A stretch of 52,853 nt of DNA, taken from the NCBI GenBank assembly GCA_011526265.1, contig WTJN01000034.1, positions 1 to 52,853 on the forward strand. The letters run 5' to 3'. The notes under the pieces were generated by a model. It ran no database searches and had not been told where the DNA came from. It worked only from the letters and a program-made list of their open reading frames with translations. This DNA is from Candidatus Arcticimaribacter sp. GTDB lineage: Bacteria > Bacteroidota > Bacteroidia > Flavobacteriales > Flavobacteriaceae. Positions 526 through 6,465 of the stretch are shown here, one piece after another (within the stretch, counting starts at the first letter, position 1; each line of letters opens with the position of its first letter). The translations under genes were made by a program, and so were the position numbers.

Positions 526-2139
526 ATGATGGAGTACGATTTTATCATCATCGGAGCAGGATCAGCCGGTTGTGTCTTGGCCAATCGCCTGTCGGCCGAC
601 CCCCACAATAAGGTGTTATTGCTTGAGGCCGGTGGCCCTGATCGCCACCCCAATATTCACATCCCAGGGGCCTATGGAAAACTTCATAAAAGCAAAGTGG
701 ATTGGGGCTTTTGGACCGAACCGCAACAGCATGTGAACAACCGTAAAATCTACCTCCCCCGCGGGAAAACCTTGGGCGGCAGCAGTTCCACCAATGCCAT
801 GGCCTATGTGCGAGGCAACCGTGCCGACTATGACGGATGGGCCGAACTGGGAAACAAGGGCTGGAACTATGATGCTGTTCTCCCCTACTTTATCCGTTCG
901 GAGAAACACCAGCAGTACGCCGAGATGGACCACGATTATCATGGGAAGGACGGCCTTCTTTCGGTAGGTTTACCCACCCCCACCGATTCGCCTCTGGTCG
1001 AGGCCTTTATTCAGGCCTGTGCCGCGGAACGCATTCCAACCACCAAAGATTATAACGGTGCCCGACAAACAGGCGCTGGCCATGTGCATTGCACCATTGA
1101 CAATGGAAAACGCGCCAGTGCAGCAGCGGCATTTTTAAAGCCCGCCCTTGCACGAAAAAACCTTATGGTACTCACCCGTGCCCAGGTGACCAAGATCAAT
1201 TTTGAAGGCAAAAAAGCCGTGGGCGTCGTCTACAATCATGGAAAACGCAGCAAAACCGCCAAAGCCGCAAAAGAAGTCATTCTTTCGGCGGGGGCGTTTC
1301 ACTCACCACAGCTACTGCAAATCTCTGGCGTTGGCCCGGCCAAGGTGTTAAAAAATGCTGGGGTTGACGTGGTGCACGAACTCAAAGGGGTGGGGAAAAA
1401 TCTACACGATCATCTGTTTTACCCCATCTGTTGTTCCGCCAAAAAACAAGTGGGCATCAACCACTACATTCCCCCGTGGGCGCAATTCAAAGCGGGACTG
1501 CAGTATTTTTTACAAAACAAAGGCGTCTTTTGCAATGGCCCCCTCGAGGGGATGGCCTTCTTCGATTTGGAACGCCAGGGCAATAGCCCCAATTTCCAGT
1601 TTCATTTTTCCCCCATGTGGATGGGGAACTCCTATGCCTACGATGCCTATGATTTAAGCACCTTCCCAAAAGAGGATGGATATACGATTCTCCCTACCCT
1701 ATTGCATCCCAAAAGTCGGGGAACGGTGCACATCCAATCGCCCAATGCAACGATGGCGCCCGTGATTCAACCAAACTTTTTATCGGAGGAGGAAGATCTT
1801 GCACAATTGGTTCACGGCGGAAAAATTGCCGTGAAAGTCATGGAACAAAGCGTTTTGAAGAAACATCAAAAAGCCAAAGCATTCCCAAAGATCTATACCA
1901 GCGAAAGTGCATTAAAAGCTCACATTAAACAAACCTTGGAAACGGTGTACCATCCTGTCGGTACCTGTAAAATGGGCCATGACCCCATGGCGGTGGTCAA
2001 CGACCAACTTCAAGTGCACGGCTTAGAGCATCTTCGTGTGGTGGATGCATCGATCATGCCCAAAATTGTATCGGGCAATACCAATGCGCCGGTCTACATG
2101 ATTGCCGAAAAAGCCGCCGATTTGATTTTGAATGCCTAA
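526..2139 (+). CDS. GMC family oxidoreductase (choline/alcohol dehydrogenase-like, FAD-dependent)
   Basis: N-terminal FAD motif [39 protein letters not shown] signature, C-terminal [11 protein letters not shown]...[28 protein letters not shown]. Confidence 0.95.
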
Positions 2140-2169: not shown

Positions 2170-3468
2170 TTGAAAAAACAAAGCACGCCAGTGGATCTAA
2201 AAACAGCCCCTATATCGACCCCGCCGCCAGGCTTTGGACAGATCATTCTGCTCATTTTTGCGGCGGAATCTATTTTTCTATTGCCCTTTTTGTTGGCCCG
2301 AATTTTCCGCCCCACTTTCTTGGCCGTTTTTGAGATCACCAACTTTGAATTGGGAACACTCTACTCGACCTATGGTGTCGTGGCATTGCTCTCCTATTTG
2401 TATGGGGGAACATTGGCTGACCGCTATTCTCCACGAAAGCTCATGGCAACATCCTTAGTGCTCACTGCTGCTGGGGGAATCCTCATGACCCAATATCCTT
2501 CTTTGCGCCTGCTTCAAATCCTTTACGGCTTTTGGGGCTTTTCGACCATTTTTCTTTTTTGGGCAGCCATGATCAAAGCCACCAGAAAATGGGGAGGACA
2601 CCACCAACAGGGACGTGCCTTTGGCTATTTGGAGGGCGGGCGAGGTTTGGTCGCAGCATTGATTGGAGGGGTTGGTGTCTACCTCCTGGCAGCCTTCTTA
2701 CCGAATCAAGTAGAACCTCTTTCCATCGCAGAAAGGCAAGCGTCTTTCCAGTCGGTCATTTGGTTCACTACAGCGCTTGTTGCGCTTGTGGGACTCGCGG
2801 TATTTTTCTTTCTCGATGATACGGAGATGCAAGGAACACAGCATCAATCCACGGCTTGGCATCACATCAAAACAGCGGCGCAGTATAACGTTGTGTGGTA
2901 TCTCATCGTCATTGTGGTCTGCGCCTATTGCGGTTACAAGGTCACGGATATCCTTTCGCTTTATGCGGCCGAAGTGATGGGTTTTGGTGAGGTCGATGCC
3001 GCCAAGGTCAGTGCTTTTCAAATGTATTTGCGCCCGCTAGTTTGTGTGAGTGTTGGCTACCTCGCCGATCGGCAAAGCAGCAGTAAATGGATTTTTTATG
3101 GTTTTGTGGTCTTGCTTTTCAGTGCCGCAGCCTTTGCCAGCGGAAAGATTGTGGCCACATACACTCCTCTCTTCATTGGGTTGGTCGTCACCACAGGTTT
3201 CGGGGTATACAGTCTGCGCACCTTGTACTTTTCGGTCATTAAAGAAGGGAAAATTCCTTTTACAATAACAGGAACTGCCGTTGGGATGATTTCAGTTGTT
3301 GGCTACACCCCAGATATTTTTATGGGGCCCGTGATGGGCTATTTTCTCGATGAATATCCGGGAATGGTCGGGCACCAAAAGGTTTTTTTGCTGTTGGCCG
3401 CATTCGCCTTGGTGGGCAGTGTCGTCGCTTTTATTTTGAAAAAAATGGTGCATCAAAATCACGCATAG
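2170..3468 (+). CDS. MFS transporter (TTG or downstream GTG start)
   Basis: About 12 hydrophobic segments; MFS motif 'YGGTLADRYSPRKLM' and 'GYLADRQSSSKW'; no in-frame ATG near the N-terminus. Confidence 0.88.
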   Translation: MKKQSTPVDLKTAPISTPPPGFGQIILLIFAAESIFLLPFLLARIFRPTFLAVFEITNFELGTLYSTYGVVALLSYLYGGTLADRYSPRKLMATSLVLTAAGGILMTQYPSLRLLQILYGFWGFSTIFLFWAAMIKATRKWGGHHQQGRAFGYLEGGRGLVAALIGGVGVYLLAAFLPNQVEPLSIAERQASFQSVIWFTTALVALVGLAVFFFLDDTEMQGTQHQSTAWHHIKTAAQYNVVWYLIVIVVCAYCGYKVTDILSLYAAEVMGFGEVDAAKVSAFQMYLRPLVCVSVGYLADRQSSSKWIFYGFVVLLFSAAAFASGKIVATYTPLFIGLVVTTGFGVYSLRTLYFSVIKEGKIPFTITGTAVGMISVVGYTPDIFMGPVMGYFLDEYPGMVGHQKVFLLLAAFALVGSVVAFILKKMVHQNHA

Positions 3469-3496
3469 CCACCGATATTTTTTTACCTTGAAAAAC

Positions 3497-6001
3497 ATGA
3501 ATCTATCCGCAGACTATCTCATTGTTGGCAGTGGCGCCATGGGCATGGCCTTTGCCGACATTCTTGTTGAAGAATCGGACGCTACACTCATTATTGTAGA
3601 CAAAAACGCAGCGCCGGGGGGGCACTGGAATTTTGCTTACCGATTTGTTCAGCTGCACCAACCCGCCGCCTTCTATGGTGTGAGCTCAAGAGAATTGAGC
3701 AACGGCACCACCGACCAACACGGCTTCAACGAAGGCTTTGCGAGTCTTTCCTCTCTTACCGAGATTCAACAGTATTACAAAGCAGTCATGGAAGAACAAT
3801 TCCTCCCCAGCGGACGTGTACAGTATTTCCCCCAGTGTGAATACATGGGCGAGCATCAATTCCGCTCGTTAGAAACAGGAGAAGTCTTCCAGGTTGATGT
3901 CGCAAAAAAACTGGTCAATGCGACCTATCTCAACACCTCGGTTCCCTCTACCCATACCCCCAACTTCAGTTGGAACAAAGGTACCTCCTTACGGCCCATC
4001 AATGATTTACCCGATCTGTACCAAAACCACGATCATTTCTGTATTATTGGTGGTGGAAAAACGGGCATGGACGCCATCATCTATCTTTTGCAAAACAATG
4101 TTTCTGCCAATGCAATCAGTTGGGTCATTTCCCGAGACAGCTGGGTCATTGACCGCGCAACTACCCAAAACACCGCTGACTTCTTTGTGCAGAGTATTGG
4201 GAATCAGGCGCATCAGTTTGAAGCCTTAACCGAAGCCAGCTCCATCGACGATCTTTTCCTTCGTTTGGAAGAGAAAGGGGTATTGATGCGTTTAGACAAA
4301 AACATTGTCCCAAAACAATTCCACGGCGCCACCGTGAGCAAAAAAGAATGGGCAGCGCTGCAAACGGTAGGGACAACCATTCGGAAAGGGAGAGTCAAAC
4401 GCATCAACGACAACACCCTGTTTTTTGATCAAGCCGAACACCATTGCCCGGACAACACTCTTTTTGTGGACTGTTCTGCGACGCCCATTCGCAAAGACCT
4501 AAAAAGCGTTCCTATCTTTCAAGACAAGCACATCACCCTACAAACGGTGCGCTCCTATCAGCCTGCGTTTAGTGCTGCTTTTGCAGCACACGTGGAATTG
4601 AACTATCCCAACGATAAAGAAAAAAACAAACGCACTGGGGTTGTTCCCCTACCGGATCGGGATACCGACTGGCTACGCGGACTAGCGGCCACCACCACCA
4701 ACCAATTGACGTGGAGTAGTGACAAACCCCTTCGCCAGTGGATGACCCAAAATCGATTGGATGGATTCAGCCACTTGGTGCGAGGAATCGCCAAAGACGA
4801 TCTTCCAAAGCAAAAAATCATACAGCGACTAAAAACCAATGGCCTTCCGGCCATGATGAAACTGCAACAATTTATTCAAGTACTCGACCAAATGGAACAA
4901 AAAAAAGTCAACAACCCACTCTTTCAAGTGGAAAAGAAACTCTTCTTCAAACACGAGTTGGTAGCCTCCCCTGCTTTGAAAGGAACCACAGGCGAAGGGC
5001 AAATTCTAGTAAAAATTGATCGATTTGCCTATACGGCCAACAACATTACTTATGCCGCCACCGGCGATGTCATTCGCTATTGGGAATTTTTCCCGGCTTT
5101 GGGGGACCGAAAAGACCTAATGGGTGTTATTCCCGTTTGGGGATTTGCCGATGTCGTTGAATCCAATTGTGAAGATGTTCCCGTTGGCGATCGCATCTAT
5201 GGATATTTCCCACCGACCGCTTTCTTGATGATGCACCCACAGAAAGTGCAAAAAGAACGTTTTTTTGAGGGCGCACCCCACCGTCAATCCTTGCCCATGG
5301 GATATAATCTGTATCGACGTGTCAACAACGAAGCCCAGTACAATCCTCGTTACGACAACGATCGTGCTTTGCTTTTTCCGCTATTCCTAACGTCCTTTTG
5401 CCTTTGGGACAGTCTTCAAGAGCAAGATTGGTTTGGTGCGGCACAGGTCTTGGTATTAAGCGCCTCGAGCAAAACCAGTATCGGGCTAGGCTATGCGCTT
5501 CAACGCGACCCCTCGGCACCCAAGTCTCTGGGCGTGACCTCCGAAAAAAATCAATCCGCCACGCAAAGCCTGGGCATTTGGGATGAAGTGATCACTTATG
5601 ACCAAATCGAGCAATTGGATGCCACCGTCCCTACGGTGATTGTGGACATGTCGGGAAACAATGCAGTGCTTCAGTTGCTGCATCAGCATTTTGGCGATCA
5701 AATGAAGTTTACCCTCAAGGTGGGGCTCACCCACTGGTCCAAAGCCAATCCAAATGTGGGGACCAACAACCAGCGAAGTAAATTTTTCTTCGCTCCGGCA
5801 CACATCGAAAAAAGGTTCAAGGAATGGGGACCTGCTCGTTTTGACGAAAAAGTAAATGGCTTTTTCATGGAAACCGTGCAAAAAACAAAAGACTGGCTGG
5901 AGTACAACGAAATGGAAGGCCTAGAGGCCTTGGCCAAAGTGCACCCCGAAGTGTGCAATGGAACACGTTCCCCCAAAGAAGGCATCATCATAAAACTGTA
6001 A
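3497..6001 (+). CDS. Fusion protein: N-terminal FAD/NAD(P)-binding oxidoreductase + C-terminal DUF2855 domain
   Basis: Rossmann motifs GSGAMGMAFAD and IGGGKTGMDA in the N-terminal half (about 3497-4900); C-terminal half (about 4905-6001) has DUF2855-like 'FAYTANNITYAATGDVIRYWEFFPA', 'WGFADVVES', 'HRQSLPMGYNLYRR', 'VLVLSASSKTSIGLGYAL', 'VDMSGN'. ORF track begins at TTG 3488; ATG at 3497 preferred. Confidence 0.85.
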   Translation: MNLSADYLIVGSGAMGMAFADILVEESDATLIIVDKNAAPGGHWNFAYRFVQLHQPAAFYGVSSRELSNGTTDQHGFNEGFASLSSLTEIQQYYKAVMEEQFLPSGRVQYFPQCEYMGEHQFRSLETGEVFQVDVAKKLVNATYLNTSVPSTHTPNFSWNKGTSLRPINDLPDLYQNHDHFCIIGGGKTGMDAIIYLLQNNVSANAISWVISRDSWVIDRATTQNTADFFVQSIGNQAHQFEALTEASSIDDLFLRLEEKGVLMRLDKNIVPKQFHGATVSKKEWAALQTVGTTIRKGRVKRINDNTLFFDQAEHHCPDNTLFVDCSATPIRKDLKSVPIFQDKHITLQTVRSYQPAFSAAFAAHVELNYPNDKEKNKRTGVVPLPDRDTDWLRGLAATTTNQLTWSSDKPLRQWMTQNRLDGFSHLVRGIAKDDLPKQKIIQRLKTNGLPAMMKLQQFIQVLDQMEQKKVNNPLFQVEKKLFFKHELVASPALKGTTGEGQILVKIDRFAYTANNITYAATGDVIRYWEFFPALGDRKDLMGVIPVWGFADVVESNCEDVPVGDRIYGYFPPTAFLMMHPQKVQKERFFEGAPHRQSLPMGYNLYRRVNNEAQYNPRYDNDRALLFPLFLTSFCLWDSLQEQDWFGAAQVLVLSASSKTSIGLGYALQRDPSAPKSLGVTSEKNQSATQSLGIWDEVITYDQIEQLDATVPTVIVDMSGNNAVLQLLHQHFGDQMKFTLKVGLTHWSKANPNVGTNNQRSKFFFAPAHIEKRFKEWGPARFDEKVNGFFMETVQKTKDWLEYNEMEGLEALAKVHPEVCNGTRSPKEGIIIKL

Positions 6002-6003
6002 GC

Positions 6004-6465
6004 ATGTATCAATTGGCCCAAATCAATATTGCAAAAATGAAAGGGGAAGATATCAATGCCCCCATCATGAAAGACTTTGTTGAGAACATTGACCGCATCA
6101 ACCAATTGGCCGAAGCAAGCCCAGGCTTTGTATGGCGATTAAAGGACGAAGGAGACAACGCCTTGTCTATCAATCCTTTTCCAGATAATAGCCTGCTGAT
6201 CAACGTTTCAGTTTGGACGGATGTAGAGCATTTGAAACAGTACGTCTACCAAAGTATGCATGCCGAAATCATGCAGCGCAAACGGGAGTGGTTTCATCAC
6301 ATTAAAGGCTTTTACTATGCTTTATGGTGGATAAAAACTGGCGAGTATCCCAGTGCAGAAAAAGCGGCAAAGAAGTTATCACAATTGCAAGCCAAAGGTC
6401 CCAATCAGGAGGTGTTTACTTTCAATACCGCCTACCCTCCACCACCAAACACAGCGAACTTATGA
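6004..6465 (+). CDS. DUF3291 domain-containing protein
   Basis: MYQLAQINIAKMKGEDINAPIMKDFVENIDRINQLAEASPGFVWRL...; ATG at 6004 follows the upstream stop with no spacing. Confidence 0.85.
   Translation: MYQLAQINIAKMKGEDINAPIMKDFVENIDRINQLAEASPGFVWRLKDEGDNALSINPFPDNSLLINVSVWTDVEHLKQYVYQSMHAEIMQRKREWFHHIKGFYYALWWIKTGEYPSAEKAAKKLSQLQAKGPNQEVFTFNTAYPPPPNTANL

Follow-up and report, generated by a model that had tools for sequence, protein, structure and literature searches.

The question raised by this locus is what a flavoprotein and a DUF2855 domain accomplish when joined in a single 834-aa polypeptide. The gene lies in a 52,853-nucleotide stretch of contig WTJN01000034.1 (referred to here, in its entirety, as the window) from a member of Candidatus Arcticimaribacter, which belongs to the NS5 group of marine Flavobacteriaceae (PMC9122927), and an in-frame TTG at 3488, nine bases upstream of the ATG at 3497, would extend the protein to 837 aa. 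All of the motifs quoted in an earlier note on this DNA are located in the protein, including both dinucleotide motifs (GSGAMGMAFAD and IGGGKTGMDA, the latter at residues 184 to 193), GDRIYGYFP (residues 564 to 572), and SASSKTSIGLGYAL (residues 655 to 668). The C-terminal half carries a complete DUF2855 domain, as had been claimed; Pfam DUF2855 (PF11017) matches residues 510 to 823 over profile positions 1 to 333 of 335 (E 3.5e-97, 326.7 bits, cut-off 30.9), and alignment with stand-alone copies puts the beginning of the DUF2855 portion near residue 474. On the N-terminal half, Pfam gives weak matches to NAD_binding_8 and Pyr_redox_3 and nothing stronger. A literature search, drawn mostly from papers outside subscription, yielded no paper that names DUF2855/PF11017, no function assigned to it, and no report of a natural flavoprotein-DUF2855 fusion; text matches to "PF11017" look like Plasmodium gene numbers and were dismissed.

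Table 1. Positions in the window of the fusion gene, its halves and motifs, and the adjoining genes
Feature	Coordinates	Strand	Remark
GMC oxidoreductase gene	526..2139	+	Upstream, in the same gene run
MFS transporter gene	2170..3468	+	Directly upstream of the fusion
Fusion gene, 834 aa, Candidatus Arcticimaribacter	3497..6001	+	Single uninterrupted open frame
Flavoprotein half, residues 1-470	3497..4906	+	Two dinucleotide-binding motifs
First dinucleotide (FAD) motif GSGAMGMAFAD, residues 11-21	3527..3559	+	
GGHW, residues 41-44	3617..3628	+	FMO-like "GG.W" position; 28/28 homologues
Second dinucleotide (NAD(P)H) motif GGGKTG, residues 185-190	4049..4066	+	G[GAS]GKT in 28/28 homologues
Helix and junction between halves, residues 436-473	4802..4915	+	From the AlphaFold model
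DUF2855 half, residues 474-834	4916..5998	+	Predicted MDR fold
NNITY, residues 515-519	5039..5053	+	N515, N516, and Y519 invariant in 69 DUF2855 proteins
SASSKT, residues 655-660	5459..5476	+	SSKT in 69/69; at the place of MDR AxxGxVG
THW, residues 745-747	5729..5737	+	H in 60/69, W in 50/69; near the ene-reductase Tyr position in the profile alignment
DUF3291 protein gene	6004..6465	+	Starts 2 bases past the fusion stop codon

Among 19 Arcticimaribacter genomes, nine carry the fused gene and eight carry a stand-alone DUF2855 gene (~367 aa) at a different locus, with the flavin gene absent from the available sequence of all eight of the latter. The fused frame is full length in eight of the nine species, that of the window included, and runs off the contig end in the other (L040); the remaining full-length Arcticimaribacter proteins are 62 to 77% identical to that of the window. 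The order of GMC, MFS, and fusion genes, followed by AroQ, DUF1330, hydrolase, and XerD genes, is kept wherever the contigs extend. The stand-alone copies (L029:9380-10483, L039:9563-10663, and those of six further Arcticimaribacter genomes) are ~55% identical to the fused domain and are convergent with a beta-oxidation operon that includes thiolase, FadB-like, thioesterase, acyl-CoA dehydrogenase, and regulator genes. Beyond the genus, when species genomes were scanned with a DUF2855 alignment, a Saprospiraceae MAG (L057) proved to encode the same fusion (837 aa); the scan required an alignment as query, and a single query sequence gave no match.

Elsewhere the same two proteins are encoded by separate neighboring genes, including those of an Acidobacteriota MAG, Alteromonas profundi, Ahrensia, Arenicella, and other Proteobacteria, located on one strand, where they overlap or have a few tens of bases between them; further adjacent pairs are present in additional Pseudomonadota genomes, and a TetR-type regulator gene adjoins the pair in L069, L102, L177, and L178. 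Of 349 Pseudomonadota genomes sampled, 11 contain the flavin family, 32 (~9%) contain DUF2855 (over the cut-off), and nine contain both, with the two genes side by side in three of these and apart in the rest. DUF2855 is thus found in 9 of 11 genomes with the flavin gene versus 23 of 338 without it (Fisher p 7e-9, uncorrected for relatedness). It also occurs in Caulobacter vibrioides, Bradyrhizobium, SAR86, and others, and outside Arcticimaribacter is mostly stand-alone; because most copies elsewhere stand alone and eight Arcticimaribacter species have DUF2855 without the flavin gene, the flavin partner is not obligatory.

Phylogenetically, DUF2855 proteins fused to or beside a flavin gene all fall on one side of a branch with a support of 100, together with some stand-alone ones, and the linked flavin genes form a clade with a support of 98 that contains two unlinked flavin genes. 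Sequence distances of the two halves correlate across 12 pairs (r 0.55, permutation p 0.001), a pattern that shows shared history and not function. The trees disagree on whether the fusion had one origin or two, but one origin alone is not rejected by AU tests of either half (p 0.46 and 0.17). Among other members of the flavin family, the Acidobacteriota genome of L065 has a second copy (L135), a more distant paralogue alongside which no DUF2855 gene was found, and a haloarchaeal member on a Natronosalvus amylolyticus plasmid (L234:6935-8404) is annotated simply as "NAD(P)-binding protein." A homologue on a Pseudonocardia plasmid (NZ_CP012182.1 293346-294575) is spread across three annotated hypothetical proteins and is therefore probably a broken gene.

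Two trivial origins of the fusion have to be weighed against these observations. An assembly or frameshift error could join two genes, and the genome behind the window is indeed a 186-contig draft; however, the same fused frame is open in nine separately assembled species and in the Saprospiraceae MAG, and some of the fusion-bearing Arcticimaribacter assemblies consist of only 4 contigs. Because the frame is open in nine species of the genus and its neighborhood is conserved, we exclude an artefact, whose probability is negligible, and the fusion is genuine, as the earlier note had supposed. Alternatively, neighboring genes could have merged incidentally when a stop codon was lost, their products sharing no reaction, and both the frequent occurrence of DUF2855 alone and the two unlinked genes within the linked flavin clade would agree with this. 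We regard such a merger as very improbable, since gene adjacency recurs across many unrelated genomes, and every fused species retains both domains in intact, conserved form. The occurrence of the same two proteins as products of adjacent genes elsewhere argues instead that the fusion fixed a pre-existing partnership. Adjacency in other phyla, together with co-occurrence, also supports the proposed Rosetta-stone link of DUF2855 to a flavin-dependent step, as far as sequence comparison can indicate.

The DUF2855 half is predicted to adopt the fold of the medium-chain dehydrogenase/reductase (MDR) superfamily, which would make it a distant relation of alcohol dehydrogenases and ene-reductases. 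An AlphaFold2 model of the fusion built with 96 sequences has a mean pLDDT of 94.6 and a pTM of 0.75; the pLDDT with 9 close relatives was 51, and the higher value was reached when stand-alone homologues of both halves were added. When the whole fusion protein was used as the Foldseek query, the top matches in the PDB were zinc-less MDRs (PTGR1/LTB4 12-hydroxydehydrogenase, plant double-bond reductases, and a fungal ene-reductase), with a TM by target of ~0.67 to 0.71 for the best of these. The fold match is assigned to the DUF2855 half by profile comparison, in which hhalign aligns DUF2855 colinearly with 18 ADH_N_2-type MDRs over 305 columns (97.2%, E 4.3e-11), versus 0.3% in a control comparison with FMOs. 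The profile alignment, the Foldseek matches, and the predicted structure thus agree with the remote MDR relationship suggested previously, and we infer that DUF2855 is a divergent member of the zinc-less MDRs. Pfam MDR models do not match the fusion protein, a search of a viral structure library gave weak MDR or monooxygenase matches at most, and no conserved zinc-ligand Cys pattern was seen in DUF2855. The MDR glycine loop [AG]xxGxxG is present in only 3 of 69 DUF2855 proteins, with the invariant SSKT in its stead. The Tyr of the CGxISxY motif is catalytic in PTGR and double-bond reductases, and this motif is present in 13 of the 18 reference MDRs, with DUF2855 proteins mostly having VGxTHW there. 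The Rossmann half is intact in the AlphaFold model, a conserved TSxxN at the end of beta-2 would fit binding of a phosphorylated nucleotide, and nucleotide use by DUF2855 is likely.

The flavin half is FMO-like but lacks the fingerprint of the class. Its first motif is GxGxxG-like (GxGAxG) in 26 of 28 flavin-half homologues, and the second motif and GGHW are universal among them; a profile match with FMO-like proteins (98% probability) spans residues ~7 to 214. The Foldseek match of the fusion model to flavin-containing monooxygenases is lower than those to MDRs (TM by target 0.45, rmsd >10 Å), and PDB searches with the single sequence or a narrow profile gave no match past the N-terminal FAD motif. 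The fingerprint FxGxxxHxxx(W/F/Y/P) of FMOs and type I BVMOs (as defined in PMC5407406) is absent from all 28 homologues, so that membership in the class-B FMOs and BVMOs, to which the class-B-type architecture described in the earlier note pointed, is unsupported. The LATGY motif of N-hydroxylases is likewise found in 0 of 28, and the fusion protein has no match to the Pfam FMO-like family PF00743. The FMO-like half may work like a class-B monooxygenase.

These departures from both classes admit other readings of each half. The flavin half could be an NAD(P)H-dependent flavin reductase or dehydrogenase, that is, a two-dinucleotide-domain flavoprotein that is no oxygenase and passes electrons to an acceptor or reduces a double bond, with DUF2855 performing a second redox step. 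The missing fingerprint and LATGY motif would suit such an enzyme, as would the weakness of the PDB sequence matches beyond the first ~60 residues, where thioredoxin reductase-like proteins appear alongside monooxygenases; however, the best 50 Foldseek matches list FMOs and the LbmA Ox oxygenase domain and no thioredoxin reductase, and the monooxygenase entries 4a9w and 4usq align over the GGxW and LHQP region, leaving this a possible but rather doubtful reading. A different departure would make DUF2855 a non-redox MDR-derived domain (a lyase, an isomerase, or a ligand- or acyl-CoA-binding domain), in which case the fusion would pair a flavin step with a non-redox one. The replacement of the glycine loop by SSKT fits this, as do the positions of stand-alone copies, which in Arcticimaribacter adjoin beta-oxidation genes and elsewhere lie near acyl-CoA dehydrogenases, but the intact modeled Rossmann half and the conserved TSxxN oppose it, and we judge it unlikely. 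A further and tentative proposal is that DUF2855, with its glycine loop changed to an invariant SSKT and its catalytic Tyr gone, is an undescribed MDR branch with a chemistry new for MDRs, for which an FMO-like flavoenzyme lacking the fingerprint would supply the substrate, such that the fusion would be a self-contained two-step enzyme.

The neighboring genes offer some metabolic context. The GMC oxidoreductase of the window scores 596.9 bits on the NCBIfam choline dehydrogenase model PRK02106, just below its cut-off of 605, and a 151-aa ORF (22-477) has no Pfam or NCBIfam match. In sister species, the neighbors of the fusion encode GNAT, a phospholipid-methyltransferase-like protein, an alpha/beta-hydrolase, a glyoxalase-like protein, and DDAH. 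Neighbor families of stand-alone DUF2855 genes lean to catabolism (as raw counts, with no background), and a TetR gene precedes the stand-alone DUF2855 of a Pseudosulfitobacter plasmid. A flavin-half homologue on a plasmid of Rhizobium sp. SSA_523 (L231:6998-8389) has no DUF2855 nearby and is located near NO- and oxidative-stress genes, among them those for superoxide dismutase, flavohemoprotein, and truncated hemoglobin. In an Alphaproteobacterium, a classical MDR (ADH_N_2/ADH_zinc_N; L085:11362-12378) is encoded just downstream of the flavin-DUF2855 pair, with a TetR-like gene beyond. Taken together, these contexts suggest that reactive or hydrophobic compounds are catabolized or detoxified but single out no one substrate, and because the neighbors differ between phyla, they fix no pathway. 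A lactone pathway of GMC oxidation, a Baeyer-Villiger step, and alpha/beta-hydrolase action, suggested by the neighbors in L049 and L053, was considered and set aside: no such hydrolase was found beside the cluster in the window, and the FMO/BVMO fingerprint is missing.

We view the protein as a naturally occurring fusion in which an FMO-like flavoprotein is followed by a predicted divergent MDR, and the best explanation of the whole, to which we give about an even chance, is a two-domain, two-step redox enzyme that acts on one hydrophobic carbonyl substrate. The N-terminal half would bind FAD and NAD(P)H and would most likely oxygenate, or otherwise oxidize, a small hydrophobic carbonyl-type substrate; the DUF2855 half, most likely an NAD(P)H-dependent reductase, would use either that substrate or what the flavin half makes from it. 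The flavin step may come before the DUF2855 step, and the fusion may channel an intermediate between the halves. In the window, the pair probably belongs to a small catabolic or detoxification cluster with the GMC alcohol oxidase/dehydrogenase, the MFS transporter, and the DUF3291 protein. Monooxygenation followed by enone reduction, as the earlier note put it, would be one conceivable chemistry, and its "ketone/enone reduction" amounts to a guess, because the MDR half has neither the canonical nucleotide loop nor the double-bond-reductase Tyr. Through fusion, gene adjacency, and co-occurrence, DUF2855 is tied to a specific flavoprotein family, and its function becomes testable as a concrete pair of enzymes that are otherwise products of neighboring genes.

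Among known systems, the PTGR/LTB4DH/double-bond reductase branch of the MDRs (Pfam ADH_N_2 plus ADH_zinc_N) has the predicted GroES-like plus Rossmann fold in common with DUF2855, although identity is ~15%, SSKT stands for AxxGxVG, and the CGxISxY Tyr is missing. Members of Pfam DUF2855 are usually stand-alone, whereas here the domain is placed behind a flavoprotein. The flavin half has the GxGxxG FAD motif, the GG.W, and the second, GxGxxG-like NAD(P)H motif of FMOs and type I BVMOs, but neither FxGxxxHxxx nor a PF00743 match. Outside the MDRs, the ene-reductase XenB is an Old Yellow Enzyme. Engineered ene-reductase-BVMO fusions exist, for example XenB-CHMO (PMC9354712), and likewise combine a C=C reductase with a BVMO to run a cascade; they are artificial, unlike the present fusion, which would be a natural counterpart to the flavin-monooxygenase/reductase fusions that chemists have built by hand.
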